A DNA stretch of 64,000 bases, taken from Salinibacterium sp. M195 (GTDB lineage: Bacteria; Actinomycetota; Actinomycetes; Actinomycetales; Microbacteriaceae). The stretch spans positions 1,426,001-1,490,000 of the forward strand of contig NZ_CP040814.1 of the NCBI RefSeq assembly GCF_019443965.1, read 5' to 3'. The position numbers and the translations under genes were made by a program. Under the pieces are notes generated by a model. It made no database searches, was not told where the DNA came from, and saw only the letters and a list, made by a program, of their open reading frames with translations. This document shows, piece by piece, positions 15,070-38,882 of this stretch; the first letter of the stretch is position 1, and each line of letters begins with the position of its first letter.

Positions 15070-15924
15070 ATGATTACGGATCAGTACGAGTTAGTGCTGC
15101 CCAGCGGGCCAGTGAATGTGCATGTTTCCGCGGCCTCCGATCGCGGTTCAGTGCGTTCCATCAACGAAGATAGTTTCCTCGTGCTTCCTCGCCTTTTTCT
15201 GGTCGCTGACGGTATGGGCGGCCACTCGTTTGGTGATCGCGCCAGCCAGTGTGTTGTTCAGAGTTTTGCGCGCGCTATGGCCCAACATGACCTGCTGACT
15301 CCCGCAGACATCGTGCAGGCGATCATCGAAGCAAACTCTGCGGTCATGAACTTGAACAAAGATGACGAAGCCGTGTCAGGTACCACCCTGTCTGGCCTCG
15401 CGCTGGTGTCGGTCGGCGTCGATGCTGAACCACGCTGGATGGCTTTCAATGTGGGGGACTCCCGTGTCTATAGCTGGGATGGTCGTCAGCTAGAGCAGGT
15501 CACGGTCGACCACTCTGCGGTGCAAGAACTTCTTGATCTGGGGCACATCACGGCGCTGGAAGCAACAACGCACCCTGAACGCAACGTCATCACGCGTGCA
15601 CTCGGCATTCATGAGGAGGTCAATCCAGATTTTTGGCTGCTGCCGGTAGGGACGCGGCACACCTTTGTGGCTTGTTCGGATGGCCTCACTAAAGAGCTCG
15701 ATGATGACCTGATTGCGGGCATCCTTGCCGATCGGGCCGCCCTAAGTGACGGCGTAAGTTTTGCCGATCGATTGGTTGCGGGGGCGCTCGCCGCTGGGGG
15801 CTCCGACAACGTGACGGTGATTGTCGTTGAAGCTAGCCGCACGACAAATTCAGACTCTGCCAATGAAGACACTGTTGAGCGCGAAATTCCTCAGCATCTC
15901 GAAGAAACCCGACCGAGAAAGTAG
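15070..15924 (+). CDS. PP2C-family Ser/Thr protein phosphatase (PrpC/PstP-like)
   Basis: A 284-residue PPM phosphatase. Conserved motifs appear in order: SDRGSVRSINEDS, FLVADGMGGHSFGDRAS, VGDSRVYSWDG, ACSDGLTKEL and GGSDNVTVIVVE. All Asp residues for the two-metal centre are present. There is no membrane segment, so it is cytosolic. ATG 15070 has GGGGG (15058-15062) 7 nt before it; ATG 15052 is an alternative six codons upstream. It is the first gene of a long same-strand run and should reverse the action of the kinase two genes on, keeping the FHA proteins of the island in balance. Confidence 0.93.
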   Translation: MITDQYELVLPSGPVNVHVSAASDRGSVRSINEDSFLVLPRLFLVADGMGGHSFGDRASQCVVQSFARAMAQHDLLTPADIVQAIIEANSAVMNLNKDDEAVSGTTLSGLALVSVGVDAEPRWMAFNVGDSRVYSWDGRQLEQVTVDHSAVQELLDLGHITALEATTHPERNVITRALGIHEEVNPDFWLLPVGTRHTFVACSDGLTKELDDDLIAGILADRAALSDGVSFADRLVAGALAAGGSDNVTVIVVEASRTTNSDSANEDTVEREIPQHLEETRPRK

Positions 15925-15930
15925 ATCGCA

Positions 15931-17232
15931 GTGGTCATGACGTACCTCTATGCCCCGCCCGTTGACACCGCGTGGTCTGCTGTTGTCGGCGAGCAGCAGA
16001 TTATCCTGGTCGACTCTCTCGACGTGAGCCTGCTCGACACATTGTGGGCCAAGCGGTCTCTCGGCGTGCAGGCTGCAGTAGAAACGCTCAGCGCTCGCGG
16101 ACTCTCAGCCACCCCAGCGTTTGCCATCGTCGAGTGGACAGCGGATGACGACAACCGACCTGGCGCACGGGTGATTGTTCGGGGGCCGGTCAGCATCACC
16201 TTGGGCACTCCGGCTGGCACGGAAACTGTTAGTGGCGTTCGGGTGAGTACCTGGGCGGAACGTTACTGCGACGACGTAGTCGACTGCGTCGTCATTGTCG
16301 ACAACGCCACTACGGCAGACCAGCTTCCCATCGTTGAGGGCGTGGTGCGCGCGGCGCAGTTGAGCTGCTCGCAAGTTGCGGCGGCGAGCACACCGATAGC
16401 AGCGGTTGCCTCGGTGTCTGCGTCTGCGCCGACTGCGGCACCTGTACCGGCTGCTGTGCCTGAACCTGCACCCGTACCGGTTTCTGCGCCAGCTGCCGAG
16501 CCCTCGGCACCGTTTTCTGAGGTAACTATCGTCGACCGCCCCGCAGACATTGACGACGAGTCGATTCAGGATGTCGCCTCATCGATCGAGGTGGAGGACA
16601 ACTCCAGCGGGTACGACTACTTGTTCGGCGAGACCGTCGTGCGAGATATTTCCACGGCCGCTGCGGGGCAGGATGTCGGAGATGATGAATCGCTAGCGGG
16701 GCAAGAAAACGCGACCTCGGTGGTAGAAGACCTGATCGGTAAGGTGCCGACATCCGCCTCCGCCTCCGATGCAGCTGCTGCCGTCGACCCGGAAGGCGAC
16801 CACGATGGCATGACGATCATGACGAGTGATTTGGCAGACCTTCGCGCCGCACGATCGAAGGAGCGCACCGAAGCGCCGCCCGCTCCTGAACAACAGAAGC
16901 TTTACCTGCAGATGTCAACGGGCGCGCGGGAGTCGCTGACGCAGCCGATCTTGATCGGGAGAGCGCCGACAGTGAGCAAAGTGTCCAGTGGAGCATTGCC
17001 GAGACTCGTGACGATTCCCGGAGATAAAGACATTTCTCGAAACCATGTGCAAATCGTGGTCGAAGGGGGAACAGCGGTGGTCACTGACTTGCATTCCCGA
17101 AACGGAACACACGTCGCATTGCCGGGTCGACCGTCCCAACGTTTGCGTGCCGGCGAACCGACGACCATTATTGTGGGCACCGTCATCGACCTTGGCGGAG
17201 AAGTCACGCTCACTGTCGGCGAGGATGCGTGA
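15931..17232 (+). CDS. FHA-domain protein with long disordered middle
   Basis: A 433-residue cytosolic protein. Residues ~1-150 form a folded N-terminal part of unknown family. Residues ~150-320 are Ala/Pro-rich and then acidic, predicted disordered. Residues ~330-433 are an FHA domain with LIGRAP, the phosphopeptide-binding SRNHV and HSRNGTHV. FHA domains bind phosphothreonine, so the disordered Ser/Thr/Asp-rich linker could be a kinase target. The start is GTG 15931 or ATG 15937, 6 or 12 nt after the phosphatase stop. It overlaps the kinase gene by 4 nt, implying a phosphatase-FHA-kinase unit. Confidence 0.85.
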   Translation: MVMTYLYAPPVDTAWSAVVGEQQIILVDSLDVSLLDTLWAKRSLGVQAAVETLSARGLSATPAFAIVEWTADDDNRPGARVIVRGPVSITLGTPAGTETVSGVRVSTWAERYCDDVVDCVVIVDNATTADQLPIVEGVVRAAQLSCSQVAAASTPIAAVASVSASAPTAAPVPAAVPEPAPVPVSAPAAEPSAPFSEVTIVDRPADIDDESIQDVASSIEVEDNSSGYDYLFGETVVRDISTAAAGQDVGDDESLAGQENATSVVEDLIGKVPTSASASDAAAAVDPEGDHDGMTIMTSDLADLRAARSKERTEAPPAPEQQKLYLQMSTGARESLTQPILIGRAPTVSKVSSGALPRLVTIPGDKDISRNHVQIVVEGGTAVVTDLHSRNGTHVALPGRPSQRLRAGEPTTIIVGTVIDLGGEVTLTVGEDA

Positions 17233-18911
17233 TGCGCCGCACAGCAGCCACTCCACCCGAGTTGCCCGGTTACACGTTCGTTAAGCTGCTCGGCTCGGGC
17301 GGCTTCAGCGACGTTTTTCTCTACGACCAGCACCTTCCTCGGCGTCGCGTGGCTGTAAAAGTATTGTTGACCGAAGACTTGGCGCCAGCGACGAGAGCGT
17401 CATTCGTCGCTGAGGCTAACCTCATGGCCCAGCTCTCGGCGCACCCTTACATCGTCTCGATATTTCACGCGGATGTTGCTTCCGATGACCGCCCCTATTT
17501 CGTTATGGAATACTGCTCGGGCCCTAGCCTCGCCGAGCGCTACAAGAGCGCCCCGCTGCCGGTTACTGATGTGCTCCGTGTGGGTATTCGAGTCAGTGGG
17601 GCGGTGGCGACCGCCCACACGGCAGGAATTCTGCACCGTGACATCAAGCCTGCCAACGTGCTCACCAACGACTACGGGTGGCCCGCGCTTACCGACTTTG
17701 GAATTTCGTCTGCGCTCGACGACGAGATCCCGCTGCATACCAGCTCTCGTGCCCCCGTCGTCGAAGAGAGCGGATCAACGACGGGTGCGTCGATTGGTAT
17801 GTCCGTTCCGTGGTCGCCGCCGGAAATGTTCGAAGACGACCCGAATCCGGATGTTCGCGCCGATGTTTTCTCTCTCGCCGCTACGCTCTACACTCTTCTC
17901 GCCGGTCACACACCGTTCGAGGTGCGTGGTCGCTCCAACGGTGCTCTCGATCTCATCGGTCGTATCGAGCGAGGGCTGATTACACCTCTGACCCGCGACG
18001 ATGTGCCCTCGAGCATGCTCGCCGTTCTGCGCAAAGGAATGGCCTCGCGCCGGGATGATCGCTTTGCCAGCGCACTCGATTTTGCTCGAGCCTTGCAGCG
18101 AGTCGAACTGGAGCTGGGTTATGCCCCGACAACGGTCGATGTGCCGAATCTCGCTGTCGATCAGGTTGCTCACGGGAACCCTGACGACGACGATGACGCC
18201 ACACGCGCACGCAGCGTCTCCACGATTCAAGCCCAGCCTGCGCCCGCCGCACCGCAAGCCCGGAAAAACCCCGATGCTGCTGCGGCCCGCGCCGACAGCG
18301 CCGATGAAACCCAAGTTCGTGGTGCTCCGCAGCAAGTGGCTCAACCGGCATCAGCCGGTTCAGCGGCGGCGCTGCCCGCTGCAGCCGTGCCAGATGTGGG
18401 TGAAACCGTTGTGCGACCTCGGCAAACCGCAGGCAACGCTGCGAGCACTGTGGCGACATCCGCTCTGGTTGACGAAGAGTCCGAAACCGAACGGCGGCCT
18501 CGACGCCCGGTGCTCGGATTGGTGATTGGTGGCATTGCGGTTGCGGTTGCGGCAGCAGTCACGATCGCCGTCGTCGTATCGAACCCGGTTTCCACCGAGG
18601 AGCCAGAAGTCACTGCGCCCACAAGCGCCCCGACATCTGCCGTAGTGGAAAGTGTGCCCACTCCGGTGCTGCTCTCGTCATCCGAGAGTCAAGGCTCTGT
18701 GATTTTCTCGATCGATAAGCCCGCGCTGCAGGAGGGCGATCGCATCATCTGGAAACGAGTGGGTCGCGCGAGTGAGCCAGTCAAGCAGTCTGAAGACGGC
18801 ATCATCACCGTAGACGGCTACGTCGCATCGACAACGTTGTGCATTGACGTTCGTATCGTGCGGTCGGGCGTTGAATCGGCGAACCCCTTGGAAGCGTGCT
18901 TTCCCGAATGA
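17229..18911 (+). CDS. Membrane Ser/Thr protein kinase (PknB-type catalytic domain)
   Basis: A 560-residue Hanks-type kinase. Glycine loop GSGGFSDV, ATP-binding Lys in VAVKV, catalytic HRDIKPANVL and DFGISS are all intact. The kinase domain (~1-290) is followed by a ~150-residue Ala/Pro/Asp-rich juxtamembrane region with several DETQVRG/GETVVRP-like Thr sites. One helix follows (~430-452) and a ~105-residue outer domain without PASTA repeats. The GTG at 17229 overlaps the previous stop; ATG 17232 is equally possible. The outer domain has two cysteines, perhaps a disulfide. It probably phosphorylates the FHA partners and the secretion ATPase; that target list is inferred. Confidence 0.93.
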   Translation: MMRRTAATPPELPGYTFVKLLGSGGFSDVFLYDQHLPRRRVAVKVLLTEDLAPATRASFVAEANLMAQLSAHPYIVSIFHADVASDDRPYFVMEYCSGPSLAERYKSAPLPVTDVLRVGIRVSGAVATAHTAGILHRDIKPANVLTNDYGWPALTDFGISSALDDEIPLHTSSRAPVVEESGSTTGASIGMSVPWSPPEMFEDDPNPDVRADVFSLAATLYTLLAGHTPFEVRGRSNGALDLIGRIERGLITPLTRDDVPSSMLAVLRKGMASRRDDRFASALDFARALQRVELELGYAPTTVDVPNLAVDQVAHGNPDDDDDATRARSVSTIQAQPAPAAPQARKNPDAAAARADSADETQVRGAPQQVAQPASAGSAAALPAAAVPDVGETVVRPRQTAGNAASTVATSALVDEESETERRPRRPVLGLVIGGIAVAVAAAVTIAVVVSNPVSTEEPEVTAPTSAPTSAVVESVPTPVLLSSSESQGSVIFSIDKPALQEGDRIIWKRVGRASEPVKQSEDGIITVDGYVASTTLCIDVRIVRSGVESANPLEACFPE

Positions 18912-19615
18912 ATCCCCTAAGAATTGAGTTCTGTGGCGAGTGGTACGAGGTCGTTCACCCGAATGACTTTCATGTGGGGCGAGAATCTGACTTAGTCATC
19001 GACGACAACCCGTATCTTCATCGGCGATTTCTTCGCATTTATGAAGAGTTCGGCATGTGGTGGCTGGGCAACGTAGGCAACCTGCTTACAGCGACGGTGA
19101 CGGATGTCACGGGTCAAGTGCAGGCATGGCTTGCTCCGGGGGCCAGACTGCCGATCGTCTTTCCGCAGATGCAGGTGCTATTTAGTGCAGGATCTACTAC
19201 CTACGAATTCACGGTTCATGCCGGAGATGACTACTTCACGACGGCTACCGCGGTCGCTGGCAATTCAGGCTCGACGACGATCGGGCCTATTCCCCTCACG
19301 TCGTCGCAGCGGTTGCTGATCGTGGCGCTTGCGGAGAATGTATTGCGCCAGTCGTCGCCTGGCCGAGGAGACATCCCCGCGTCGGCCGAAGCTGCCGCGA
19401 GACTTCACTGGTCGATTACGACGTTCAATCGCAAGCTCGACAACGTCTGCGAGAAGTTAGACAAGAGCGGCGTAGCCGGCCTGCGGGGTGGCAAAGACAA
19501 CCTCGCAACCAATCGCAGATTGCGGCTCGTTGAGTATGCAGTAGCAACTCGGCTTGTCGATAAAGACGATCTTTACCTTCTTGAACGCAACGACGAAGAC
19601 AAACGGACCCCGTAA
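18908..19615 (+). CDS. FHA domain fused to a C-terminal winged-helix DNA-binding-like domain
   Basis: A 235-residue protein. The N-terminal ~100 residues form a divergent FHA-like fold (VGRESDLVIDDNPYLHRRFLRIYEE), with an H-R-R in place of the usual S-x-x-H. The C-terminal half (LTSSQRLLIVALAENVLRQ...HWSITTFNRKLDNVCEKLDKSGV...NRRLRLVEYAV) looks like a winged helix with a recognition helix. This suggests a transcription factor that reads the phosphorylation state set by the kinase. Its ATG overlaps the kinase stop by ATGA, so it is co-translated. It lies just before a 146-bp gap and the giant surface-protein gene, a natural place for it to act. Confidence 0.72.
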   Translation: MNPLRIEFCGEWYEVVHPNDFHVGRESDLVIDDNPYLHRRFLRIYEEFGMWWLGNVGNLLTATVTDVTGQVQAWLAPGARLPIVFPQMQVLFSAGSTTYEFTVHAGDDYFTTATAVAGNSGSTTIGPIPLTSSQRLLIVALAENVLRQSSPGRGDIPASAEAAARLHWSITTFNRKLDNVCEKLDKSGVAGLRGGKDNLATNRRLRLVEYAVATRLVDKDDLYLLERNDEDKRTP

Positions 19616-19761
19616 TTGGGGGCACGCTAGGGCAGAACTACCCATACCCTTTCTAGCTGGGTGACTCCGCAAAATGCTAGGATATGTCATGGAATTTGGT
19701 TAGAGATTTGTCGGCGTGATCGTGTGCATACAAGCTGTGCGGAGTTCGGGAGAAGTACGAC

Positions 19762-22700
19762 GTGAAGTTGTCTGTCGGAACTGCGCGCAATCGCAAAACC
19801 ATCGCGTCTGTCGTCGCGCTCTCGCTTGTCGTCGGGGTTCCGCTGACGGTAGCCGCGCTACATCCCGGCTATCCCGTGTCAGATGTCGACCTCACCGCGT
19901 CAGACGTGTGGGTCACTAACGGTGAGCAACTTCTTGGCGGCCGTCTCAATCGTCAGATCGACGAACTCAACGGTTCCGTGATTGCGTCGAGCGCGCAATT
20001 CGATGTCTTGCAAGACGGCAACACCCTCTTTATGAGTGATCCTGTGTCACATCGTGTCGAGTCGGTAGACCCGGCTACGACGGAAGTTACCTCGGCGATC
20101 GATGTGCCCCCGGATGCCGCTGTGTCATTCGGCGGAACCAATCTCACTGTTGTTTCTCCCGATGGCGATCTGTGGATCGTTCCGGCTGTCGGAGATCTGC
20201 AGTTCAACTACATCTCAGCACCTCCGCTGCTCGAGCTCGGCCCTGGTGGCCAAGCAACAGTCACTCGCGATGGCGTGGTGATTGCGGTGTCGCCCGCACA
20301 CAAGTCTATTTATCGGGTTGCGACCATCGCCGACGAGCCAGTCGCCGCTGATTTTCCCGCCGTGGGAGAGTTTCAGATCGCCGCTACCGGTGATTCAGCT
20401 GTCGTCTTCGACCAGTCCACAAACGAACTTGTCACAGAAGCTGGCAAGGTTTATCCCCTCACCAAGCAGGGCCTGCGCTTGCAGCAGTCCAGCGCAGAAT
20501 CAGATTTCGCGGTTGTTGCCACCGCCGATTCGCTTCAGCGCATCAATCTGGGCAACGGAGAAATCGCCGATGTGGATGCCGACATCCAGAATCCGGTCGA
20601 TGATGACACCAGCGTTTCTGCGCCCGTAGCGCTCGACGGCTGTGCGCACGGCGCGTGGGCGTCGGCACAGCGCTACGTACTCGCTTGCGCGGACGGCGAT
20701 CCTCAAACTCAGGCTATTAGTGAGCTGACTCAGGGCAACGTGCTGGAATTTCGCGTAAACAAGTCAGTAATCGCTCTCAATAACCTGACTAACGGCAATG
20801 TGTGGTTGCTCGACGACAACATGCGGCTCGTCGAAAATTGGGACGACGTCACTCCGCCCGAAGATGTGGAATCTGAAGAGGAAGGCGACGAGAAGTCGTC
20901 GATTCAGTCATTCGAAGACACCCTCGCCGAGCGCACAGACACGAACCGCCTTCCTGTCGCGTCCGACGACGAATACGGTGTTCGCCCAAGCCGCACCACG
21001 GTGTTCACCGTGCTCGACAACGACACAGACGCAGACGGTGACGTACTCGTTGTCTCGGCGTACGACCGTGTTGCGGAATCGACCGGGCGACTCGACCTGA
21101 TTGACGGGGGTCGCGCGCTCCAGTTCACGCCCGTGAGCGATTTTGTGGGCTCAATCGCCTTCAACTACACGATTAACGATGGCCGAGGCGGCACGGATCA
21201 GGCTCGCGTCACCGCAACGGTTGTTCCAGAAGGCCGCAACGAGCTCCCGTACAGCGTTCGCGAAGCGGGAATCAGCGTCGAAGCAAATCAGACCGTCAGC
21301 TACAACGTGCTTGCTGATTGGAAAGATCCCGACGGTGACGATCTGTATCTGATTGCGGCGTCGCCCAAATCCGGCGACCTGGTGAGGTTCACGCCAGACG
21401 GTTTCATCACCTTCACCCACAAGACGTCTGAACTCGGTGAGAAAGAGGTTTCTTTCTTAGTATCTGATGGCAGCAAGACGCCTGCTCAGGGCGAACTGAT
21501 CGTGACTGTCGAACCGCCGGGAACGCTCAATCCGGTGGGCACCCCCGACTTCGCAACGGCGTTCGAAACTGAGACCGTTGTCATCGAGCCGTTGCTCAAT
21601 GACTTATCTCCTTCGGGAGCGCCCCTTGCCTTGGTAGCAATGGATGAGGCAAGCGATGGCGCTGTCGCATCGTTCAACAGCGATCGCGGCGAGATTACTT
21701 TTAGCTCCTCATCCGCCGGAATTTTCTACCTCACGTACACGCTGAGCGCTGGCTCCAATACGAGCGTTGGGCTGGTTCGTATTGATGTGATGCCCACGCC
21801 AGGCTCGACAGAGCTTCCGCCCGTTGCGGTGAAAGACACCGCGTATTTGCGTGGTGACGAACCAACTACCGTGTCGGTACTGTCGAACGATGTGAGTCCG
21901 AGCGGCAATATCTTGGCCGTGCAGTCAATCGATGTGGATCCGGCGCTTACCGCGAAGGGGCTCGTCGTCGAGCTCTTGGAGAGCACGCTCATCCGCGTGA
22001 CTTCTCCGGCAGCCCTCACCAAACAGGTCAACTTCACGTACACAATTTCGGATGGCCTTGGCACGGCAACGGCTGGTGTCACGGTGGTTCCTGTGCCGGC
22101 TCTCACTAAGCACCAGCCGCCGGTGGCAGTGGATGACTCCGCCCGCGTGCGTGCTGGCGACATCATCACGCTGGATGTTCTCGATAATGACTTCCACCCG
22201 GATGACAGCCCCATGGCACTCGACGCAGAATTGGTGACAGCACCAACGGCGGGTGTGGCTTTTATTAGCCAAGACAATTTGCGCTTTCAGGCGCCGACAA
22301 AGCCGGGGCTGTACACGGTCGATTACCGGGTCATTGATCCTTTCGGCGAGACGGCGGCGGCGACTGCCAGCTTTACGGTGACCCCGCTCGATCTCGAGGC
22401 TAACCAGGATCCGACTCCATTAACGCTGGTGGCGCGAGTGCTTGCCGGTGGCGAGATTCGGGTTGACATTCCGCTCAACACGGTTGATCCCGATGGTGAT
22501 TCCACTGACCTGTTGAGGTTCCCCACTAACCCGACCCTCGGGGCGGTAACGGAGTTCGGAACCGACTACTTCTATTACGAGGCTTCTCCGGGAGTCGCCG
22601 GCACTGACTCGTTCAGCTACGAAGTGCTCGACGCGTTTGGTGCTACGGGCGTCGCTGAGATCAAGATCGCAATCATTCCTGAGCCGGATGAGCTGCGCGA

Positions 22701-30084: not shown

Positions 30085-33000
30085 AACTCAAGCTCACTTT
30101 GAAGCGTGAGAACGGGCCGCAGTCCGACATCGTGGTCACGTCAGATGCCTCAGCGACCGTGGGGTCGCTAGCTGAGGCAATCGCCACAGTTGATCCGTTC
30201 GCGTCGAAAGCCACGGCCGTGCGCTCTCTGACTTTGCTCAGCTCGCAGGGTGGCGCCGGGCGCGTTCTCGAGCCCGATGTTGCTCTGGGAGATTCCCCGA
30301 TCGCCTCCGGCGCTACGGTCAAGCTGTCTGCCGATTCGGGTTCGCTCCCACCGGCAGCGGGCACTCAGCCGGCAGCCACGCTCACCATTGTTGATGGACC
30401 AGATATCGGGCGCATCATTACGCTGCCGATTGGTGGTGCGGTGCTTGGCCGCGATGCGCGAGCAGACATTCTGCTCGATGATCCTCTGGTGTCAAAGCTG
30501 CACGCACGGGTGGATGTTGCGCCAGGCGTTGTGCGTATTGTCGATCTCAATTCGGCAAACGGAATTGAAGTAGATGGCGGGCCAGTGACCCGTGTCGAAC
30601 TCGGCGACGGTGAAACGGTGCTCGTCGGCAATAGCCTCATTCGGGTAGGCATTGTCGTGCAAGAAGACCGTACGCACGACTTTCTTGCCGAGGGGCCGAT
30701 TGGGTTCAACCGATCACCCCGGGTCGAGGAACGCTACCCTGGTGAAGAGTTCGTTGGCCCTAAAGTTCCGGCGCCGGCTGAGCCGACTCCGTTCCCATGG
30801 CTCTCGCTCATAGCGCCCCTCCTGATGGGGTTGGTGTTATTCGCCGTTACTCAGCGATTGATTTCTGTCGTCTTCGTTGCTCTGTCGCCACTGCTGATGT
30901 TAAGCACATTTTTCACCAACAGCCGATTGCGCAAGCGCAAGGCAAAGCTCGAGCTGGAGCAGTTCGAGAAGCAACTCACCTACCTCAGCGAAGAACTCGA
31001 GTCGCAGCATCCGATCGAGAAGTCAGTGCGGCTGCGTGAGCTGCCGTCCACTTCCGAGGTCTATGACGAGGCGATGACTCTCGGGCCCGTCTTGTGGACC
31101 CGTCGCCCTGAGCACTGGTCCTTTCTCTCGTTGCGACTGGGAGTGGGGTCACTTCCGTCGCGTAACAGCGTTTCTGTTGTCGGTGAAGACGAGGGCGTTC
31201 CTGAGTTACGTGACCGGTTCCGGGAGGTGCGTGATCGCTACTCAACTGTCGATGGTGTGCCCCTCGCTGAAAACCTCTACGAGTCCGGAGCGCTCGGAAT
31301 AGTAGGAGAGCACCACTCTGCTGCGGATGTCGCGCGTGGTCTGGTGACTCAAGCCGTCGGCCTGCACTCGCCAACTGAGCTGGTTGTCACGGCAATCGTC
31401 GGACCAACGTGGAGCCCGGAATTCGAGTGGTTGAAATGGCTGCCGCACACGGCTGCACCCAACAGCCCGATCAGCGGAAGCCACCTCGCCAACAGTCAAG
31501 CAACCGGTGGCGCCCTTCTCTCGATGCTCGAAGAGCTTGTAGAGGCGCGTCGAGGCGCAAACCGTGCCGGGGCTGGGTTCCGTGGTGCTACGAACTTCGA
31601 TTCCTCGGCGATTGTGCAGGGGGAGCGTGTGGGTCAGGACGACCAATCGGCGCCACCACCCGTTGCCCAGCCTGCCATTCTGGTTCTTATCGGACATGAT
31701 GCCCCGATCGACAAAGCGCGACTGGTGCAGTTGGCCGAAAATGGTGCCGAGGCGGGCGTGTTCCCCATCTGGTTGGCGCCGGAGGTGTCAGACCTCCCCG
31801 CTGCAGCGAGAACATACATCGAAACGAATGGCGATCACAGCCAGTCTGCGGTTGGCTACGTTCGCTTGGGTCGTCGCATTAGCCCGGTGACGACTGAACC
31901 AGTGTCCAGCGAGAATTCGCTGAAACTGGCGCGCCGACTCGCTCCCGTTTATGACGCTGGCTTCTCTGAAGCAGATGAGAGCGATATCCCTCGCAGCGTT
32001 TCTTTGGTTTCGCTCTTGGGAACCGACCTCACTGAGAGCAGCGAAGCCGCGATCGAGCGGTGGCAGCAGAACGACTCAATTCACGACCGTTCAGGGGCGC
32101 CGCCGAAACGTTCTCGTCGTACCGGCAGGTTGCGCGCGATCGTCGGCCAAGCATCGGTAGATGCCATGCACCTCGATTTGCGAGCTCAAGGCCCTCACGC
32201 GCTTGTCGGCGGAACTACCGGCTCAGGAAAGAGCGAATTTCTGCAAGCCTGGGTTCTCGGTATGGCGGCGGAATATAGCCCCGACAGAGTGACCTTCCTC
32301 TTTATCGACTACAAGGGCGGCTCTGCGTTCGCCGACTGTGTCAGCCTCCCGCACTGTGTGGGGCTCGTCACCGACCTCAGCCCCCACCTGGTGCGCCGCG
32401 CTCTCACGAGTTTGCGGGCCGAGTTGCACTATCGCGAGCACCTCCTCAACAGGAAGAAAGCGAAAGACCTTCTTGAGTTGGAGAAGCGGGGCGACCCGGA
32501 GAGCCCGCCAGCGCTGGTTCTGGTCATTGACGAGTTCGCCGCGCTCGTTGGCGAAGTGCCAGAGTTCGTCGATGGGGTAGTCGACATCGCCCAGCGCGGT
32601 CGCTCGCTCGGCATCCATCTCATCATGGCAACACAACGTCCGGCCGGCGTCATCAAAGACAACCTGCGGGCAAACACGAACTTGCGCATTGCGCTCCGTA
32701 TGGCCGATGAAACCGACAGTCAAGATGTGGTCGGCGACAAGATTGCTGGCACATTTGACCCCTCTATCCCCGGTCGGGGAATAGCCAAGACGGGGCCAGG
32801 TCGACTCACGTTGTTCCAATCGGCATACGCCGGCGGGTGGAGCCGGGCCGAGAAGCCCGTTCCTTCGATCGAAGTTGGCGAGCTGCGCTTCGGTGCTGAG
32901 CTGTTGTGGGAGAAGCCGGGCGGCGCGGTCGAGCCGACATCCGACGATGAGCAAGGCCCAACCGATCAAGCACGAATCGTGGCCAATCTGATTTCTGCGG

Positions 33001-34577
33001 CCACCGCGGCTCACATTCCGGCGGCCCGACGTCCGTGGCTAGACCAGCTTGCACCGCGCTATGACCTGACTCGATTGCGCCAGCGCACCGATGCCGAGCT
33101 GGTTCTTGGCGTCAACGACGTGCCTACTCGCCAGCTGCAGAATGAAGTCTTCTTCAAACCAGACATTGACGGCAACATTGTGGTTTACGGTTCCGGTGGT
33201 ACCGGAAAATCGACGATGCTGCGCAGCCTCGCCGTTGCTGCTGGGGTGACTCCACGCGGTGGCCCCGTAGACGTCTATGGTCTCGACTTCGGCACGGGTG
33301 CGCTGCGGATGCTGGAACCTTTGCCGCACGTGGGCTCCATCGTCAGCGGAGACGACCCGGAACGAGTCATCCGGTTGCTGCGCACTCTTCGCGGAATTGT
33401 CGAAGAACGTGGCGACCGGTACACCGCCGTGAACGCTTCGACGATCGCGGAGTATCGCACTATCGCTAACCGGCCGGCCGAGGCACGCATCCTGTTGTTG
33501 GTCGATAATTTCCCGGCCTTCCGGGCCGAGTTCGAAGTGGGAGCCTCTCGCGCGCCCTGGTACGCCGCGTTCATGCAACTTCTCACAGAGGGTCGCGGGC
33601 TGGGCGTTCACGTCGCACTTTCGGCAGACCGCCCGGGGAGCGTTCCGTCTGCAGTTAGCGCTGCGATAACGCGCCGGGTGGTGCTGCGCCAAGCGGAGGA
33701 GAGTTCCTACTTCTTGTTGGATACCCCGACGGATGTGTTGTCAGCAGCGTCGCCTCCGGGGCGAGCAATTATCGACGGGCTCGAAACTCAGCTCGCGGTC
33801 GTCGGCGGCACTGCAAACGTTGCGGAGCAGTCTGCTGCCATTGAAAAGTTGGCGCGTGCTATCTCGCGCACCGACCGTACGCCGGCGCCAGCGGTAGGCA
33901 CACTGCCGTTGGAATACCCGAGTTCGCAGTTGCCGGCGATGATCGGTGACCAGGCGGCCTTGGGCATCTCAGAAGTGGATCTTCAACCAACGGGTTTCGA
34001 ACCAAGCGGAATGTTCGTGCTCGCGGGGCCTCCCGCGAGTGGACGATCCAACGCGCTCTCCGTGCTCATCACTGCCGTGGAACGCGCGGTGCCCAACGTC
34101 ACTCGCTACTACATCGGCAATCCACGCTCGGCACTGTCGCAGACCTCGGGATGGGAAGCTACCGCGACTCGCCTCGAAGATGTCAGTGATCTCGCGAAAG
34201 AAATAACGGCGACGGTCGAGGAGGGCCATGAGGGTCGTATTCTCGTCGTGATCGAACAAATTGCTGACTTCTTGAGTTCAAGCGCCGATGCCGCACTCGT
34301 TGCCATGTTGAAGGCGATTAAGCGAAGCGACCACATGGTCATTGCCGAAGCTGATTCTTCGCAGTGGGGCTCATCGTGGCCGCTGATGAGCGAAGTGAAA
34401 TCGGCGCGCACGGGATTCTTGCTGCAACCGGAGACTCTAGACGGGGATTCCATCCTCAAGACCGGGTTGCCGCGGGTCTCTCGAGCCGAGTTCCCGCCAG
34501 GCCGCGGCTACTTTATCGCTCGCGGCAAAGCGGTTCGCGTACAACTTCCCCTCTTCGATGAGCGGCTTAGCTCATGA
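30081..34577 (+). CDS. EssC/EccC-like type VII secretion ATPase with N-terminal ubiquitin-like and FHA domains
   Basis: A 1498-residue FtsK/SpoIIIE-family protein. Residues ~1-85 look like a YukD/ubiquitin-like fold. Residues ~100-190 are an FHA domain (LGRDARADILL, SKLH, NSANG). Two helices follow (~238-280), then three ATPase domains. Domain 1 is canonical: GGTTGSGKSE at 710-719, with Walker B Asp817-Glu818. Domain 2 has Lys1043 (GSGGTGKST) but Asp1142-Asn1143 in place of Asp-Glu. Domain 3 has GPPASGRS with Arg1322 for Lys and lacks a normal Walker B. This layout and the degenerate later domains match firmicute EssC and mycobacterial EccC, the motor that recognises and exports WXG100 proteins. 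Its ATG overlaps the transglutaminase-like gene by ATGA; WXG100 genes follow. Confidence 0.93.
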   Translation: MKLKLTLKRENGPQSDIVVTSDASATVGSLAEAIATVDPFASKATAVRSLTLLSSQGGAGRVLEPDVALGDSPIASGATVKLSADSGSLPPAAGTQPAATLTIVDGPDIGRIITLPIGGAVLGRDARADILLDDPLVSKLHARVDVAPGVVRIVDLNSANGIEVDGGPVTRVELGDGETVLVGNSLIRVGIVVQEDRTHDFLAEGPIGFNRSPRVEERYPGEEFVGPKVPAPAEPTPFPWLSLIAPLLMGLVLFAVTQRLISVVFVALSPLLMLSTFFTNSRLRKRKAKLELEQFEKQLTYLSEELESQHPIEKSVRLRELPSTSEVYDEAMTLGPVLWTRRPEHWSFLSLRLGVGSLPSRNSVSVVGEDEGVPELRDRFREVRDRYSTVDGVPLAENLYESGALGIVGEHHSAADVARGLVTQAVGLHSPTELVVTAIVGPTWSPEFEWLKWLPHTAAPNSPISGSHLANSQATGGALLSMLEELVEARRGANRAGAGFRGATNFDSSAIVQGERVGQDDQSAPPPVAQPAILVLIGHDAPIDKARLVQLAENGAEAGVFPIWLAPEVSDLPAAARTYIETNGDHSQSAVGYVRLGRRISPVTTEPVSSENSLKLARRLAPVYDAGFSEADESDIPRSVSLVSLLGTDLTESSEAAIERWQQNDSIHDRSGAPPKRSRRTGRLRAIVGQASVDAMHLDLRAQGPHALVGGTTGSGKSEFLQAWVLGMAAEYSPDRVTFLFIDYKGGSAFADCVSLPHCVGLVTDLSPHLVRRALTSLRAELHYREHLLNRKKAKDLLELEKRGDPESPPALVLVIDEFAALVGEVPEFVDGVVDIAQRGRSLGIHLIMATQRPAGVIKDNLRANTNLRIALRMADETDSQDVVGDKIAGTFDPSIPGRGIAKTGPGRLTLFQSAYAGGWSRAEKPVPSIEVGELRFGAELLWEKPGGAVEPTSDDEQGPTDQARIVANLISAATAAHIPAARRPWLDQLAPRYDLTRLRQRTDAELVLGVNDVPTRQLQNEVFFKPDIDGNIVVYGSGGTGKSTMLRSLAVAAGVTPRGGPVDVYGLDFGTGALRMLEPLPHVGSIVSGDDPERVIRLLRTLRGIVEERGDRYTAVNASTIAEYRTIANRPAEARILLLVDNFPAFRAEFEVGASRAPWYAAFMQLLTEGRGLGVHVALSADRPGSVPSAVSAAITRRVVLRQAEESSYFLLDTPTDVLSAASPPGRAIIDGLETQLAVVGGTANVAEQSAAIEKLARAISRTDRTPAPAVGTLPLEYPSSQLPAMIGDQAALGISEVDLQPTGFEPSGMFVLAGPPASGRSNALSVLITAVERAVPNVTRYYIGNPRSALSQTSGWEATATRLEDVSDLAKEITATVEEGHEGRILVVIEQIADFLSSSADAALVAMLKAIKRSDHMVIAEADSSQWGSSWPLMSEVKSARTGFLLQPETLDGDSILKTGLPRVSRAEFPPGRGYFIARGKAVRVQLPLFDERLSS

Positions 34578-34714
34578 ACGACTCACTCGAGCCGAAGGAT
34601 CCCGTCGATAAGTCAACTCGGGCGATCGTGCTCGACAAGAACTACCGGCCTGCGTCGATGGGGAGTGCTCCCCATCGACGCAGGTCGGTGGCAAAGATAG
34701 ATTCAGATAACTAG
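34574..34714 (+). CDS. Possible 46-residue ORF coupled to the EssC-like gene
   Basis: ATG 34574 overlaps the EssC-like stop by ATGA and the frame runs to TAG at 34712. The product is hydrophilic (MNDSLEPKDPVDKSTRAIV...) with no recognised family. More than a third of it is encoded by a near-perfect RNA hairpin (34642-34691), which makes selection on protein sequence doubtful. It may be a translated spacer whose real function is the RNA structure. Confidence 0.3.
   Translation: MNDSLEPKDPVDKSTRAIVLDKNYRPASMGSAPHRRRSVAKIDSDN
34642..34691 (+). promoter_or_regulatory. Long RNA hairpin upstream of the first WXG100 gene
   Basis: A 24-bp stem: bases 34642-34665 pair with 34668-34691 across a 2-nt TG step, with 17 inner Watson-Crick pairs (34649-34665 with 34668-34684) and two G-U pairs further out. 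There is no T tract, so it is not a classic terminator. A smaller CCGCTC-CCT-GAGCGG hairpin follows at 34716-34730, 25 nt before the WXG100 start. Likely an mRNA processing or stability element. Confidence 0.75.
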
Positions 34715-34755
34715 CCCGCTCCCTGAGCGGCGAAACAACCAGAAGGAGCATTTCC

Positions 34756-35052
34756 ATGGCAAATCTTAACGTCACCTACGACGATCTCCGCAACGCATCT
34801 CAGCGTCTTCGCACCGGCCAAGAAGAGTTGAACTCGAAGCTCACCGAACTGAGTGGAATCGTTTCGGACCTCACCTCGAATGGTTTCCAGGCTGAAGCAT
34901 CATCAGCGGCATACCGTGACTCGTTCGAGAAGTTCACTTCAGGAACGCGGTCGGCAATCGATGGACTCGAAGGCCTCTCGCAGTTCCTCGTCTCGGCCGC
35001 CGATCAACTTCAGCAGACCGACGAAGGGCTTGCTGCAGCAATTCGGGGCTAG
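34756..35052 (+). CDS. WXG100/ESAT-6-like small secreted protein
   Basis: A 98-residue helical-hairpin protein. Two amphipathic helices flank a central turn, with heptad hydrophobics such as LRTGQEELNSKLTELSGIV and IDGLEGLSQFLVSAADQLQQ. The usual W-x-G turn is replaced by SNGFQAEA, and no C-terminal YxxxD export signal is visible. Location right after the EssC-like ATPase, size and fold make it a type VII substrate or chaperone partner; it probably forms a dimer with itself or with the next protein. A strong ribosome site (AGAAGGAG) lies 7 nt before ATG 34756. Hairpins on both sides suggest it is expressed above the rest of the operon. Confidence 0.85.
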   Translation: MANLNVTYDDLRNASQRLRTGQEELNSKLTELSGIVSDLTSNGFQAEASSAAYRDSFEKFTSGTRSAIDGLEGLSQFLVSAADQLQQTDEGLAAAIRG

Positions 35053-35058
35053 TGACCC

Positions 35059-35086
35059 GGCTGGCTCCGCCTCTGCGGAGCCAGCC
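35059..35086 (+). terminator. Perfect hairpin between the two WXG100-like genes
   Basis: GGCTGGCTCCGC (35059-35070) pairs perfectly with GCGGAGCCAGCC (35075-35086) around CTCT; only TT follows. It could be a partial terminator or a 3'-end protecting hairpin for the first WXG100 mRNA. Confidence 0.7.
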
Positions 35087-35121
35087 TTCCTGCAGCCAAC
35101 TGACCTAAGGAGAATCCCAGC

Positions 35122-35508
35122 ATGGCGAGCGACCAGATGAAGATTGACTATGGCAACCTCGAACATCTCTCGACCAAATTGAGTTCTGCGTTGAACGTCG
35201 TAGGAAGAGATCTCGAAGGTTCTGTGCTCCTCGCCGCAGATTGCGGGGATGCGGGCTTGGCCAGAAAAGTTGTGGGCTTTAGCACGTCGTGGAACAAGCA
35301 TCGTTTGGACATCCGCGACACCCTTGATTGGCTCCAGGGCACGGTGAAGAACATTCGAGACGAACTCGAAGCGGTGGATACTCAACTTGCTGCGGGGCTC
35401 AACAGCGAGGGTTCAGCCGTCATGGCGCCGGGCGTCGTGGCACCCGGAGCTGTGGCACCCGGTAGTGGTAACTCCAGTAACGCCGGTAGCGGCTTCCGAT
35501 CAGTGTGA
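35122..35508 (+). CDS. Second WXG100-like protein (EspC/T7SS-target type) with Gly/Pro/Ala tail
   Basis: A 128-residue protein. Residues ~1-92 form two helices around ADCGDAGLARKVVGFSTSWNKHR, a pattern of actinobacterial T7SS-associated helical proteins in which CGD stands where WGD or WxG is common. Residues ~95-128 are a flexible tail with the repeat APGVVAPGAVAPG. AAGGAG lies 9 nt before ATG 35122. It is likely a heterodimer partner of the preceding WXG100 protein or a separate substrate. The low-complexity tail is unusual for the family and may act outside the cell. Confidence 0.78.
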   Translation: MASDQMKIDYGNLEHLSTKLSSALNVVGRDLEGSVLLAADCGDAGLARKVVGFSTSWNKHRLDIRDTLDWLQGTVKNIRDELEAVDTQLAAGLNSEGSAVMAPGVVAPGAVAPGSGNSSNAGSGFRSV

Positions 35509-35522
35509 GAAAAGACGACTAA

Positions 35523-36863
35523 ATGAACGACATGATTCCTGCTCCGCTCACGGGTGAGACGAGCACGATCCACAGGTTTGCGCAAACGTACCGCGACACA
35601 GCCGCGGCGCTTCGCGACGCAGTCGCAGGGTTGTCTGAACTCGAAAATGAGAATGTTTCGATCAGCCTTGCCGTCGACGAGGTGAGAGTCAAGGCAGCTG
35701 AGGCGAGCAAGGCTACGAGCAAGGTAGCGACGCGCTATGACGGTGCAGCCGACGTCTACTTCACCTATCAGAACGAGCTATCGCAGGCGCAGTCAAAGGC
35801 AGAGCATGCTCGCCTCGCGATCGACGAGAATAATGGCAACGCTCACTATTGGCGCCTCCGCCAGGTGCAATTGCGGGCTCGCGCTATGATCACGCCGAGC
35901 CAAGAGCTGCTCGACGACATCACGGAGACGAACGAACGCGTCCAGTCGTTCGCCTCGGAGTACGCGGTGTCCATAGCGTCCTATAACCAAGCAGTGCAGG
36001 AAAAAGCCGATGCGGTGGCAAAGGCCATCGCCGGCCTCGATGAGGTGGCACAGACAGCAGGCCTCAACGACGGCTTCTTTGAGGCGATAGCGGGAGTCCT
36101 TCAGGTAGTGTACGAACTGGCCCAGACCTATCTGGCGCCGCTGCTAACGAAACTTCGCGAACTTCTTAAGGTCATCAAAGACATTGTCGATCTGTTGTCG
36201 TTTATCGTCAGCATTCTGGCCATTTTCATCCCCGCGCTTGGGCCGTTTGCGCTGGCGTTGATACTGACGTCGCTTGCGCTCAGCGCCACCATCTTCCTTC
36301 TTTCTCTCGCGCTGTACACGCTCGGGAAGGCATCTCTCGGAACGGTGCTGGCTGACGGCGTCAGCCTGGTAGTGAGCATTGTGACCTCAAAACTCGGCCC
36401 TGCAATCAAAGCCGCGGGCCACGCGGCCCGTACGGCCCCGGGCGCCACCGCCACGGTCCGAACAGTGTTTGACGCGATAGTAGACAAGTCCATGGATGCC
36501 AGCGAGGGCGCTGTGTTGGGGCTTGCGCAGTCGGGGGCGGATCTCACGATTAGGAACACGCTAGACATCACGATTGACCAATTCCCGAACGAAAACGGCT
36601 TACCCGCCGGAACGGATCCGGGTGTAGTGAAATTGGACCACGCAACTTGGGACTTTACGGGGCTCACAGATCCCACCACGGCAAGCGATTGGGCAGTGGA
36701 AAAGGCGTTCGGCATCGCAGCCCCAGTTCCGACGTCAGTCATGGGCATCGGCGAGGGCGCAGGAGCCCTCGGCTTCAGCCTTGAGTCGATCCCTGCGGTC
36801 CTTGAGGGTGCCGCTGACACGTTCGACCTAGCCTCGAGGCTCGTGAAAGTGGCTGTATCGTGA
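35523..36863 (+). CDS. Putative large type VII substrate: WXG-like helical N-terminus with central hydrophobic segment
   Basis: A 446-residue protein. Residues ~1-190 are helical and coiled-coil-like, resembling the LXG/WXG-type entry domain of T7SS effectors. Residues ~215-275 are highly hydrophobic (DLLSFIVSILAIFIPALGPFALALILTSLALSATIFLLSLALYTLG in two or more helices, written here only to show character in part). The C-terminal ~170 residues are soluble, with DITIDQFPNENGL and TWDFTGL. No toxin family is recognised. It lies 14 nt after the second WXG100 gene and overlaps the next gene by GTGA. It could be a pore-forming or membrane-inserting effector, or a structural part of the pore replacing EccB/EccD or EsaA-type subunits, which are absent. 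Confidence 0.65.
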   Translation: MNDMIPAPLTGETSTIHRFAQTYRDTAAALRDAVAGLSELENENVSISLAVDEVRVKAAEASKATSKVATRYDGAADVYFTYQNELSQAQSKAEHARLAIDENNGNAHYWRLRQVQLRARAMITPSQELLDDITETNERVQSFASEYAVSIASYNQAVQEKADAVAKAIAGLDEVAQTAGLNDGFFEAIAGVLQVVYELAQTYLAPLLTKLRELLKVIKDIVDLLSFIVSILAIFIPALGPFALALILTSLALSATIFLLSLALYTLGKASLGTVLADGVSLVVSIVTSKLGPAIKAAGHAARTAPGATATVRTVFDAIVDKSMDASEGAVLGLAQSGADLTIRNTLDITIDQFPNENGLPAGTDPGVVKLDHATWDFTGLTDPTTASDWAVEKAFGIAAPVPTSVMGIGEGAGALGFSLESIPAVLEGAADTFDLASRLVKVAVS

Positions 36864-37465
36864 CCGAAACCGGAAACACCATTCCCCATTCCTATGTTCT
36901 GCCGATCCCCAACGGGTGGCACGAGATTCCTGCTCCAGGAAGTGGTGCTGATGCCGCTATCCGTTCACTTGCCGAGCGGCTCGCACCACGAAAAGAGTCC
37001 GTAGAGCCGCTTCGGTTTGCTCTCGCGGGGGTAGTGGAATTGTCAACAATGTTGAAGCCTGGCCCTCGCCGAAACTATGCACTTGTGGTCGATGCCGACC
37101 AAGGAATCGCAGATGCACTGATGAGTATTCGGCTGAGCCGAGTAGCGCCCGAGGCTTTCGGCCAGTATCTGGCGGCGATCGAAAGTTCCACGTCGTTGGA
37201 TCCCAAGATAGAGACTGTTACTCGAACCGTTACCGAGCTGACGCTTCAAGCGGGGCCTGCGATTCTCCTGAAAGACGTCACTGTTAAGCGCGAGCAAGAG
37301 GGATTGATTGCCGGCGCCATCGAGCGGGCACTGCTCTCGGTGTTCGTCAGCGAAGCTCCAGCGATGCTCGAAATTCTTGTCGCTACACGAAACCTCGCCC
37401 GCTTTCACGATATCGGTGAATACACTCGGGTTGTCGCCGCTGCCTACGGCCCAGACGGAGCATAA
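36860..37465 (+). CDS. Hypothetical T7SS-island protein, possible Mog1/PsbP-like fold (1)
   Basis: A 201-residue soluble protein, start GTG 36860 overlapping the previous stop. It begins with VLPIPNGWHEIP and ends with an amphipathic helix, a broad outline shared with the next gene product and with Mog1/PsbP-like (LpqN-type) proteins. I do not recognise a named family. The two adjacent genes may be distant duplicates, encoding a heterodimer that serves the putative effector as chaperone, adaptor or immunity protein. No signal peptide is seen. Confidence 0.6.
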   Translation: MTETGNTIPHSYVLPIPNGWHEIPAPGSGADAAIRSLAERLAPRKESVEPLRFALAGVVELSTMLKPGPRRNYALVVDADQGIADALMSIRLSRVAPEAFGQYLAAIESSTSLDPKIETVTRTVTELTLQAGPAILLKDVTVKREQEGLIAGAIERALLSVFVSEAPAMLEILVATRNLARFHDIGEYTRVVAAAYGPDGA

Positions 37466-37467
37466 AT

Positions 37468-38094
37468 ATGTCGAACACCTCACCGCGCTTTAGTCTTCCT
37501 GGTCAGTGGGGCAGAGTTGACCTCGCCACCGAAGCATCGAGCCGCCGCTCGATTCGACGTCTCGTCAACGACGTCGTCGGTAACGTCGATCAACTCGCAA
37601 CGTTGCGAGCCGACCTTCGAACTCGGTTTCAGGCAGCAGCGGATCCAGCCCGCGAAGGCGGGGCCACATCCATGTTCGTTGCGATTGAGCTGGCCAAAGG
37701 AATTCCGTTGCCAGCATGGGCAGTCGTGTTCGAGCCAGAGATTGAGTCCACTGACTTCGACGCGCTCGGTCTCAGCGACCTCAAGACCTTTCTCGAGCAA
37801 GGAATCACAACCACTGACCCCGCGGTGACGAGCGCTGATGTTTCTGGGCTGGCGATTCAAGCAGTGCGTCATTCTTGGCGCCGCACCGCGCAGCTCGACC
37901 CCTCCAACGAAGACACAAAGACGGAGATGTTGGAGGTCGACTACTGGCTGGCAGCAGCGAACCCCAACCGCATCGCGATGATTACGTTCTCAACCGGCTA
38001 TGCCGAGTTTGAAGAGCAGATGCTCGCGCTCTTCGACGCAGTGATTTCGACAATTCGGTGGGAGGCCCCTCAACCGCAACCGGTAGCTCACTAA
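37468..38094 (+). CDS. Hypothetical T7SS-island protein, possible Mog1/PsbP-like fold (2)
   Basis: A 208-residue soluble protein beginning 2 nt after the previous stop. RFSLPGQWGRVDL at the start and MITFSTGYAEFEEQMLALFDAVISTIRW at the end echo Mog1/PsbP-like proteins, in which a final strand and helix close a beta-sandwich. No catalytic motif and no signal peptide. Co-translation with the putative effector upstream suggests a cytosolic helper. The function is not recognised; the fold suggestion is inference. Confidence 0.6.
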   Translation: MSNTSPRFSLPGQWGRVDLATEASSRRSIRRLVNDVVGNVDQLATLRADLRTRFQAAADPAREGGATSMFVAIELAKGIPLPAWAVVFEPEIESTDFDALGLSDLKTFLEQGITTTDPAVTSADVSGLAIQAVRHSWRRTAQLDPSNEDTKTEMLEVDYWLAAANPNRIAMITFSTGYAEFEEQMLALFDAVISTIRWEAPQPQPVAH

Positions 38095-38129
38095 CCTGCA
38101 CCGGCAACGGCGAGAATGAGTTAAGGTTG

Positions 38130-38151
38130 CCTTTCGACCCGTGTTGAAAGG
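38130..38151 (+). promoter_or_regulatory. Hairpin covering the ribosome site of the last FHA gene
   Basis: CCTTTC (38130-38135) can pair with GAAAGG (38146-38151), the presumed Shine-Dalgarno 8 nt before ATG 38160. It could lower translation of this gene relative to its neighbours. Confidence 0.4.
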
Positions 38152-38159
38152 TTTGCCGC

Positions 38160-38882
38160 ATGAGCGCTGGAGATGAGAACGATTTCATCGTTCCCCCTCC
38201 CGGCATGGTGCCCACAAAAACTCCACCGAATCCCACTCAGGCTGAATCAGACCCTAGCGGCGAAGTGATCGAGATGCCTCCCGGAGTCGTCGATTCTGGC
38301 ACCTATCGAATGCCGCAGCCGCAGGTTGTTTCTCGCCCAAGCCTGGATGACGCACCCGCGTTCTTTCCCGCCAGCACGCTAGGGGCGCCAGCGCCGGAGC
38401 CTGCTCCGCCGGCTTCGCAGCACTCCGCGCCTCCTCCCATCGACGACGCGATTTCTCTTGCGGCCCGTGCCATCGATGACAAGTTCAATGACGAGCCCAA
38501 TGACGCGGTAGACGAAGAGACGCGCTTTGTCGCGGCGCCTCGAGCAACCCTCGCGTGGCAAATCACCCTTGCTGACGGCACCCAACTTTCGCTCCACCGC
38601 ACTACCCTCCTTGGCCGTGGCCCCGCGATCAACGCACAGTGGCCGGATGCTGCAGTGCTGCCGGTCATCGACCCGCTCAAGTCGGTATCCAAGACGCATG
38701 CCGCGCTCCAGGTCACGCCCGACGGAGACCTCGTGGCGCACGATCTACACTCGACGAACGGCGTATTTCTTCAGTATCCGGAGGCTGCGGAGATTGCCGT
38801 TAGGCCGGGCGAGGCGGTTCAGGTTCGGCCCGGTTCGCAGCTGAGATTAGGGCAGTTCGTCGTGGCTGTAGACCGCATCTAA
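38160..38882 (+). CDS. FHA-domain protein closing the island
   Basis: A 240-residue cytosolic protein. The N-terminal ~140 residues are Pro/Ala-rich and disordered, with ETRFVAAPR just before the folded part. The C-terminal ~100 residues are an FHA domain: LLGRGPAINAQWPDAAVLPV, SVSKTHAAL and HDLHSTNGVFL. The ETRF Thr resembles autophosphorylation or FHA-docking sites in FhaA/GarA-type proteins. It is the fourth FHA domain in the island, counting the one in the EssC-like ATPase. It probably links the kinase to the secretion apparatus. The gene is 65 nt after the previous one and followed by leuC with its own leader. Confidence 0.85.
   Translation: MSAGDENDFIVPPPGMVPTKTPPNPTQAESDPSGEVIEMPPGVVDSGTYRMPQPQVVSRPSLDDAPAFFPASTLGAPAPEPAPPASQHSAPPPIDDAISLAARAIDDKFNDEPNDAVDEETRFVAAPRATLAWQITLADGTQLSLHRTTLLGRGPAINAQWPDAAVLPVIDPLKSVSKTHAALQVTPDGDLVAHDLHSTNGVFLQYPEAAEIAVRPGEAVQVRPGSQLRLGQFVVAVDRI

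Follow-up and report, generated by a model that had tools for sequence, protein, structure and literature searches.

A candidate type VII secretion core joined to a PFNA-type, kinase-controlled envelope module in Salinibacterium sp. M195

The window considered here is a stretch of 64,000 nucleotides of Salinibacterium sp. M195 (G000:C1:1426001-1490000), in which 15 consecutive plus-strand genes form a single run at 15052-38882. This island is best explained as an Actinomycetota type VII secretion system (T7SS) whose export core, with an EssC-like ATPase, is coupled to a kinase-controlled envelope module of the PFNA type described in bifidobacteria. The probability of this explanation is put at about 0.58, on the basis of sequence comparison. 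The joined gene run suggests that the export core and the envelope module can work together. The original prediction had taken them for one machine, and linkage across many relatives, various gene orders and more than one ATPase clade speaks for this, but the linkage is not obligatory, since 17 of the 41 genomes with such an ATPase have the two halves unlinked.

The island is flanked by a minus-strand Glu/Leu/Phe/Val dehydrogenase gene and an aconitase-family gene, and no gap between its genes exceeds 180 bp. The original prediction counted at least fourteen same-strand genes with ATGA/GTGA overlaps; the coordinates and Pfam matches bear out 15, and the overlaps are found at the FHA/kinase, DUF58/transglutaminase, transglutaminase/EssC and substrate/U201 junctions. 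The operon reading is drawn from these overlaps and short gaps, and a single transcript is putative. Pfam likewise agrees with the proposed PP2C, FHA, kinase, giant, MoxR, DUF58, transglutaminase-like, EssC and last FHA genes. The 15 genes, with lengths in amino acids (aa), are as follows.

15052..15924, +, PP2C-type Ser/Thr phosphatase, 290 aa (PF13672 39.2 bits, cut-off 24; NF033484 E=1.7e-57, below its own cut-off)
15931..17232, +, FHA-domain protein 1, 433 aa, FHA at 341-422 (PF00498 36.5 bits)
17229..18911, +, Ser/Thr kinase, 560 aa (PF00069 116.6 bits; both the HRD and the DFG motif preserved)
18896..19615, +, 239-aa protein, N-terminus FHA-like, C-terminus possibly a winged helix (domains named by eye and after the original prediction)
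19762..25353, +, giant protein, 1863 aa, Big_9 Ig repeats and fn3 (PF17963 234.8 bits; fn3 52.7 bits)
25397..26365, +, MoxR-family AAA+ ATPase, 322 aa (PF07726 207.6 bits)
26378..27721, +, DUF58 protein, 447 aa, N-terminal hydrophobic segments (PF01882 50.8 bits; hydropathy)
27718..30084, +, transglutaminase-like membrane protein (TGM), 788 aa, 7 hydrophobic segments (PF01841 58.2 bits; hydropathy)
30081..34577, +, EssC-like ATPase, 1498 aa (PF01580, PF00498; TIGR03928 521 bits, under the cut-off of 778)
34756..35052, +, WXG100-family protein, 98 aa, putative core substrate (PF06013 48.2 bits, cut-off 27.3)
35122..35508, +, WXG-like small putative partner of the downstream substrate, 128 aa (read from length, position and recurrence)
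35523..36863, +, U446, putative T7SS substrate, 446 aa (homologue alignment, hydropathy)
36860..37465, +, U201, paralogue of U208, 201 aa (U201 profile matches U208 at 1.4e-6)
37468..38094, +, U208, candidate substrate chaperone or immunity protein, 208 aa (fold matches)
38160..38882, +, FHA-domain protein 2, 240 aa, island end (PF00498 29.9 bits)

Linkage of the two halves in relatives

The two halves were followed through an order sample of 149 genomes, scanned with EssC and with TGM at E<=1e-15. A window-type ATPase was defined as an EssC match of at least 870 bits, a threshold placed in the score gap from 876 down to 474 bits, and it is present in 41 of the 149 genomes. A TGM gene lies no more than 20 kb away in 24 of these 41, always on the same strand and at distances from 15 bp to 8.7 kb. 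For the lower-scoring ATPase matches, a TGM is found within 20 kb in 7 of the 52 entered, among the matches listed. The control was EccB, a component of the ESX type of T7SS: only two of the 23 EccB genomes (G304 and G263, read by eye; G numbers denote genomes and L numbers loci) have a TGM within 20 kb, and the comparison with the EssC-TGM linkage yields a Fisher p=1.3e-4.

A similar picture is given by the named loci, the best 80 of 521 relatives, whose genes were identified using profiles of the window proteins. Giant, MoxR, DUF58 or TGM genes are held by 33 of the 49 named loci flanked by 9 kb or more at either end, and one more holds kinase-module genes only; among the 31 loci with shorter flanks, 6 hold the module, 7 the kinase module only and 18 neither. 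The window-like order giant-MoxR-DUF58-TGM-EssC recurs in L100-L103, L107, L125, L137, L139 and L147. Elsewhere the order is TGM-FHA-PP2C-FHA-kinase-EssC (e.g., L113, L141, L159, L162), or TGM, one or two FHA genes and EssC (e.g., L128, L153, L164, L178). In a further arrangement EssC comes first, with PP2C-FHA-kinase-giant (L104, L111, L112, L122, L136) or kinase-giant (L117, L123, L156) downstream. Such persistence of the linkage through reshuffled gene orders suggests selection. The TGM-EssC join of the window is seen in loci of Microcella, Protaetiibacter, Salinibacterium, Amnibacterium, Leifsonia and Nocardioides. In Microbacterium sp. NIBRBAC000506063 (L173), EssC and TGM are each split into two frames, by decay or sequencing error.

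In a tree of 75 ATPases, built by a quick method with Shimodaira-Hasegawa-like approximate likelihood-ratio (SH-aLRT) support only, the window ATPase falls within a clade of 31 with support 100. MoxR, DUF58 and TGM genes, mostly together with the giant, also adjoin ATPases outside this clade, namely the short FHA-less EssC of the own genome (L040), those of G215 and G247, the G256/G208/G284/G340 group, G231 and G171; G134 and G097 have the module on the opposite strand, within ~20 kb of the ATPase. Ten changes between the linked and unlinked states are needed on 54 hand-labelled tree rows, and therefore joins or splits are frequent. The own-genome locus L040 (G000:C1:2418938-2429617) is a paralogous combination of MoxR, DUF58, TGM, a 961-aa FHA-type protein and EssC. 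Its EssC-like gene (2418938-2422015; 1025 aa, no FHA seen) is the one further EccC-like gene found in the genome, and the giant side is not within the stretch fetched.

Several observations weigh against the coupling of the two halves. The 17 unlinked genomes have no TGM within 20 kb: in six it is on the same contig but far away, in six on other contigs only, and in five absent at E<=1e-15. Module genes are also missing from 15 of the 49 full-flank named loci, and from seven of the 11 ATPase loci that were inspected first in other genomes: G189, G178, G172, G092, G108, G085 and G062 have none of the giant, MoxR, DUF58 and TGM genes close by. Of these seven, a kinase is present in G178, and G085 has a PFNA locus in another place. 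Even in the own family, G247, G276 and G262 have the EssC locus and the PFNA locus apart; in these and in G240, the EssC locus consists of FHA, EssC, WXG100 and U446, with PFNA elsewhere. Of the 61 genomes with a TGM of ~200 bits or more, 28 have no window-type ATPase; PFNA is present in G230, for which no EssC match at 1e-50 is among the matches listed; and in G331, of the same family as G230, the PFNA locus is apart from a locus resembling the published type T7SSd. When joint presence is stratified by family (147 of the 149 genomes), 33 genomes are observed and 25.0 expected, a value reached in 1 of 20000 permutations. This excess is carried by the linked genomes, because without those 24 the joint presence falls to 12 against 10.9 expected (6477 of 20000 permutations as high). 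Joint presence above family background in the unlinked genomes is thus rejected. The halves are found apart or singly, and therefore neither strictly needs the other.

Components of the export core and the envelope module

An EssC/EccC-type multi-domain FtsK ATPase with two transmembrane segments and a WXG100 protein at the locus are general features of a T7SS, and both are present in the island (PF06013 for the latter). The start of EssC is best placed at 30081, overlapping the TGM stop, which gives the database form of 1498 aa. Pfam finds two FtsK/SpoIIIE stretches and an FHA domain, and the layout comprises an N-terminal domain (residues 1-84), FHA at ~94-194, two transmembrane segments and three FtsK-type ATPase domains with Walker A endings GKS, GKS and GRS. 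The phosphothreonine-binding residues of the FHA domain are conserved, as judged from column conservation, a model and PDB matches. The nearest named relatives are Microbacteriaceae proteins. The N-terminal domain looks beta-grasp-like in its predicted strand order, a likeness that is unproven. The idea of a ubiquitin-like domain here found no support in the profile comparison with EccD, which gave a probability of 1.6% and counts against the favored explanation. A PDB sequence search with this domain gave nothing relevant, and the structural matches were taken up by the FHA domain.

The smaller genes downstream of EssC recur with it. The 98-aa protein scores as WXG100 although its W-x-G position reads N-G-F, and its home-made profile matches in 67 of the 80 named loci. 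The original prediction counted a second WXG100-like protein; this 128-aa product has no Pfam match at E<=0.01, so that Pfam supports the first of the pair only, but small homologues of the second recur just upstream of U446-homologue genes. The N-terminal ~300 residues of U446 are common to its homologues (the best one is aligned over 2-299) and contain the hydrophobic segments predicted at 221-288, while the C-terminus is variable; the U446 profile matches in 56 of the 80 named loci. ATPase-dependent export of the WXG100 protein and U446 is putative. An orphan WXG100 gene (L001, G000:C1:1254917-1255168, 63.8 bits) stands elsewhere in the genome beside GroEL-like and histidine-kinase-like genes (by eye), adjacent to none of the FtsK/EssC matches found.

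U208 has a fold like that of PsbP/Mog1/DcrB, common to the Eag chaperones of type VI secretion and to Tsi3. Eag proteins shield the hydrophobic segments of their substrates, and U446 has hydrophobic segments of this type, which favors a chaperone role for U208 and its paralogue U201. The related genes also trail substrates with different C-termini in many loci, which argues against immunity proteins directed at the variable end of the substrate. Immunity is nevertheless a possible function, somewhat short of even odds within the favored explanation, as the fold matches include Tsi3 and Tli4, both immunity proteins of type VI secretion, and the U201 and U208 genes directly follow the substrate gene.

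In the envelope module, the kinase has one predicted transmembrane segment at 432-450 and a short outer tail. The neighboring 239-aa protein, which the original prediction called FHA-winged helix, obtains no Pfam match at E<=0.01, and its orthologues adjoin the kinase in relatives. The giant protein is predicted by hydropathy to carry an N-terminal hydrophobic anchor at 14-32 and no C-terminal transmembrane segment. The metal-site columns of DUF58 are mixed and were not used.

TGM is a probable pseudoenzyme. When it is aligned to the solved enzyme 6g49, the positions of the catalytic Cys, His and Asp hold Q506, T548 and N564. Sixty readable rows of at least 100 bits were counted (the L173 fragment, with a gap, is uncounted), all from loci chosen for their likeness to the window proteins, with weaker TGMs left out. 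The Cys is present in none of the 58 cluster copies, which include the PFNA copies of G230 and G331; the column holds D, E, Q, G, S, A or R and is always directly followed by Glu-Gln, while the His is kept in 22 copies and the Asp in 36. Because the catalytic Cys is absent in all 58, TGM is probably a structural rather than a cross-linking part, and its pseudoenzyme state fits such a role without proving it. The two rows that keep the Cys also keep the His: the window gene at 56880-59150 and a second gene of G247. The former belongs to a second MoxR-DUF58-transglutaminase trio of the window (54566-59150, MoxR by eye), ~20 kb from the EssC gene, and was used as an internal control.

Known systems and rival explanations

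The island shares an FtsK-type ATPase and a WXG100 protein with the ESX systems (T7SSa; EccB-EccC-EccD-EccE-mycosin). It differs from them in that its EccC models score under their cut-offs and that neither EccB nor EccD is found in the genome. With T7SSb, the EssC system of Bacillota, it has in common the domain layout of an FHA-bearing EssC, and TIGR03928 is the best NCBIfam match; it differs in the sub-cut-off score and in the lack of YukC/EssB and YukD/EsaB matches. The own-genome partner searches, on a single contig of 3,035,657 bases, covered EccB, EccD/YukD and EssB, EccE, EsaA and EssA not being searched for, and found none of the three; the original prediction had seen no EccB, EccD or EssB homologue in the sequence. 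EccD/YukD and EssB/YukC gave no match at E<=1, with models that detect 12 of 12 EccB genomes tried and B. subtilis, respectively. A complete ESX set elsewhere in the genome is therefore rejected as regards these three. EccB occurs in 23 of the 149 order genomes and in 2 of the 41 with a window-type ATPase (G202, G260); in G304 C21 and G263 C45, TGM stands ~9 and ~16 kb from EccB, a possible rarer ESX-type link. The original prediction also saw no mycosin, which holds for the cluster. One S8 peptidase elsewhere (L202, G000:C1:2798278-2799144) scores 237 bits against a cut-off of 278.75 and has a hydrophobic start and a C-terminal segment. It lies near an enolase-like gene (by eye) with no ESX gene recognised beside it, and its mycosin identity was rejected for the low score and unrelated setting.

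In type VI secretion, PpkA, PppA and Fha form a threonine-phosphorylation switch. The island resembles that system in the kinase, PP2C and FHA proteins around a secretion motor and in an Eag-like fold beside a substrate with transmembrane segments. The machines themselves are unrelated, and the likeness is one of logic and not of membership. For the bifidobacterial PFNA cluster, the available text of PMC8430577 and PMC6803598 lists a kinase, an fn3 giant, a MoxR AAA protein, DUF58 and a transglutaminase-like protein, with PP2C and FHA genes in some species. The order pkb2, fn3, aaa-atp (MoxR), duf58, tgm is kept in the window, with the 239-aa gene between kinase and giant. PFNA is described there as a separate host-contact operon (PMC8430577, PMC6803598), and the words "secretion" and "FtsK" are absent from the main text of both papers. 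The literature search found no paper joining DUF58, transglutaminase and type VII secretion, none on PFNA with type VII secretion, and none on FtsK with DUF58 and WXG100.

The nearest published type is T7SSd, an Actinomycetota T7SS with an FHA-ATPase, WXG100, kinase and giant Ig protein (PMC11217815), and the original prediction of an undescribed system was therefore overstated. In the text available, Garrett, Higginson and Palmer (2024) define five parts: TsdA (WXG100), TsdC (ATPase), TsdD (membrane Ser/Thr kinase), TsdH (a small protein with one transmembrane segment) and TsdI (a giant Ig protein with a signal peptide and a C-terminal transmembrane segment). The island could be a plain T7SSd with MoxR, DUF58 and TGM as bystanders. 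It comes from the same phylum and has a TsdA-type WXG100 protein, a TsdC-type FHA ATPase with conserved phosphothreonine-binding residues and a TsdD-type kinase, and no separate ubiquitin-like protein is found in either system. G331, moreover, carries a T7SSd-like locus (kinase, a 147-aa protein with one transmembrane segment, a 1797-aa giant with such segments at both ends, EssC, FHA and a WXG-like protein) with no adjoining MoxR-DUF58-TGM. This explanation is unlikely, as the window giant lacks the C-terminal segment of TsdI, no TsdH-like small product with an N-terminal transmembrane segment is among the 15, which leave no gap above 180 bp, and the window adds MoxR, DUF58, TGM, PP2C and extra FHA proteins, with the MoxR-DUF58-TGM linkage recurring. 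The window ATPase also stands in a different, well supported clade from the T7SSd-like ATPases of G331 and G275, in a tree that does not contain the published TsdC set. The nearest named relatives of the G331 EssC are from Bifidobacterium sp. LC6, Actinomyces sp. HMSC06A08 and Alloscardovia, for which Pfam lists no FHA, unlike the published description of TsdC; the 120 matches listed for a G178 query aimed at named T7SSd ATPases include neither Olsenella nor Bifidobacterium. The words "DUF58", "transglutaminase" and "Fn3" are absent from the main text of PMC11217815, where MoxR was not searched. Because of the giant topology, the missing TsdH and the added module genes, the island is placed outside T7SSd, as a T7SS that works like T7SSd with PFNA added.

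A plausible minority view is that two independent machines share the kinase/FHA block and are neighbors for co-regulation only, PFNA serving adhesion or sensing and EssC exporting through other membrane partners. Each module does occur without the other, joint presence in unlinked genomes is at background, and where the loci are apart, the WXG100 and U446 matches are at the EssC locus and none at the PFNA locus; nor do the PFNA papers, in the text available, name a secretion gene (PMC8430577, PMC6803598). Set against this view are the recurrence of the linkage in several ATPase clades, the order of G256, where EssC is followed by giant-MoxR-DUF58-TGM with no kinase match in the 20 kb fetched, and the negative searches for EccB, EccD/YukD and EssB. 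It is highly improbable that the halves are neighbors by chance, or that the EssC island was recently inserted in this lineage into a PFNA operon. The modules with the most similar TGM (G247 and G215; 52% and 48% identity) have no adjoining EssC, which fits an insertion, but the TGM-EssC join in six genera, including Microcella, Leifsonia and Nocardioides, and linkage far above the EccB control contradict it as the sole explanation. Chance clustering is rejected by the linkage counts and this control.

Proposed mechanism and meaning

In the favored explanation of a T7SS core coupled to a PFNA-type module, the membrane kinase would sense the envelope or the giant protein and phosphorylate cytosolic partners at threonines. 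Docking of the ATPase to the module would follow through the FHA domain that EssC carries and through the two further FHA proteins, and PP2C would reset the switch, by analogy with PpkA/PppA/Fha. MoxR may act on a DUF58-TGM membrane complex, in which the catalytically dead TGM would be a structural part without cross-linking activity, and the giant protein may reach through the cell wall. EssC would export the WXG100 protein, as well as the 128-aa partner together with the substrate, whose membrane segments the Eag-fold U208 and U201 may shield before export. A stronger form, which appears rather unlikely, sees in the PFNA module the trans-envelope part of a T7SS type of its own within Actinomycetota. 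The giant, DUF58 and the dead TGM, from which the pore may be built according to the original prediction, would here replace EccB/EccD/EccE or EssA/EssB/EsaA, and the kinase, PP2C and FHA domains would switch the assembly; the bifidobacterial PFNA operon would then be an envelope half that lives without its motor or at a distance from it.

Should PFNA and the EssC core form a single machine, a widespread Actinomycetota group would gain a T7SS with new envelope parts, and the trans-envelope path of EssC-type ATPases outside ESX and T7SSb would become testable in environmental bacteria. The bifidobacterial PFNA operon, whose DUF58 is without a known role in the available text of PMC8430577, would obtain a concrete hypothesis. 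The Cys-less TGM speaks against the PFNA "transglutaminase" being an enzyme. Finally, with an Eag-like fold next to a T7SS substrate, type VI and type VII secretion would be connected in the way that membrane-inserting substrates are chaperoned.

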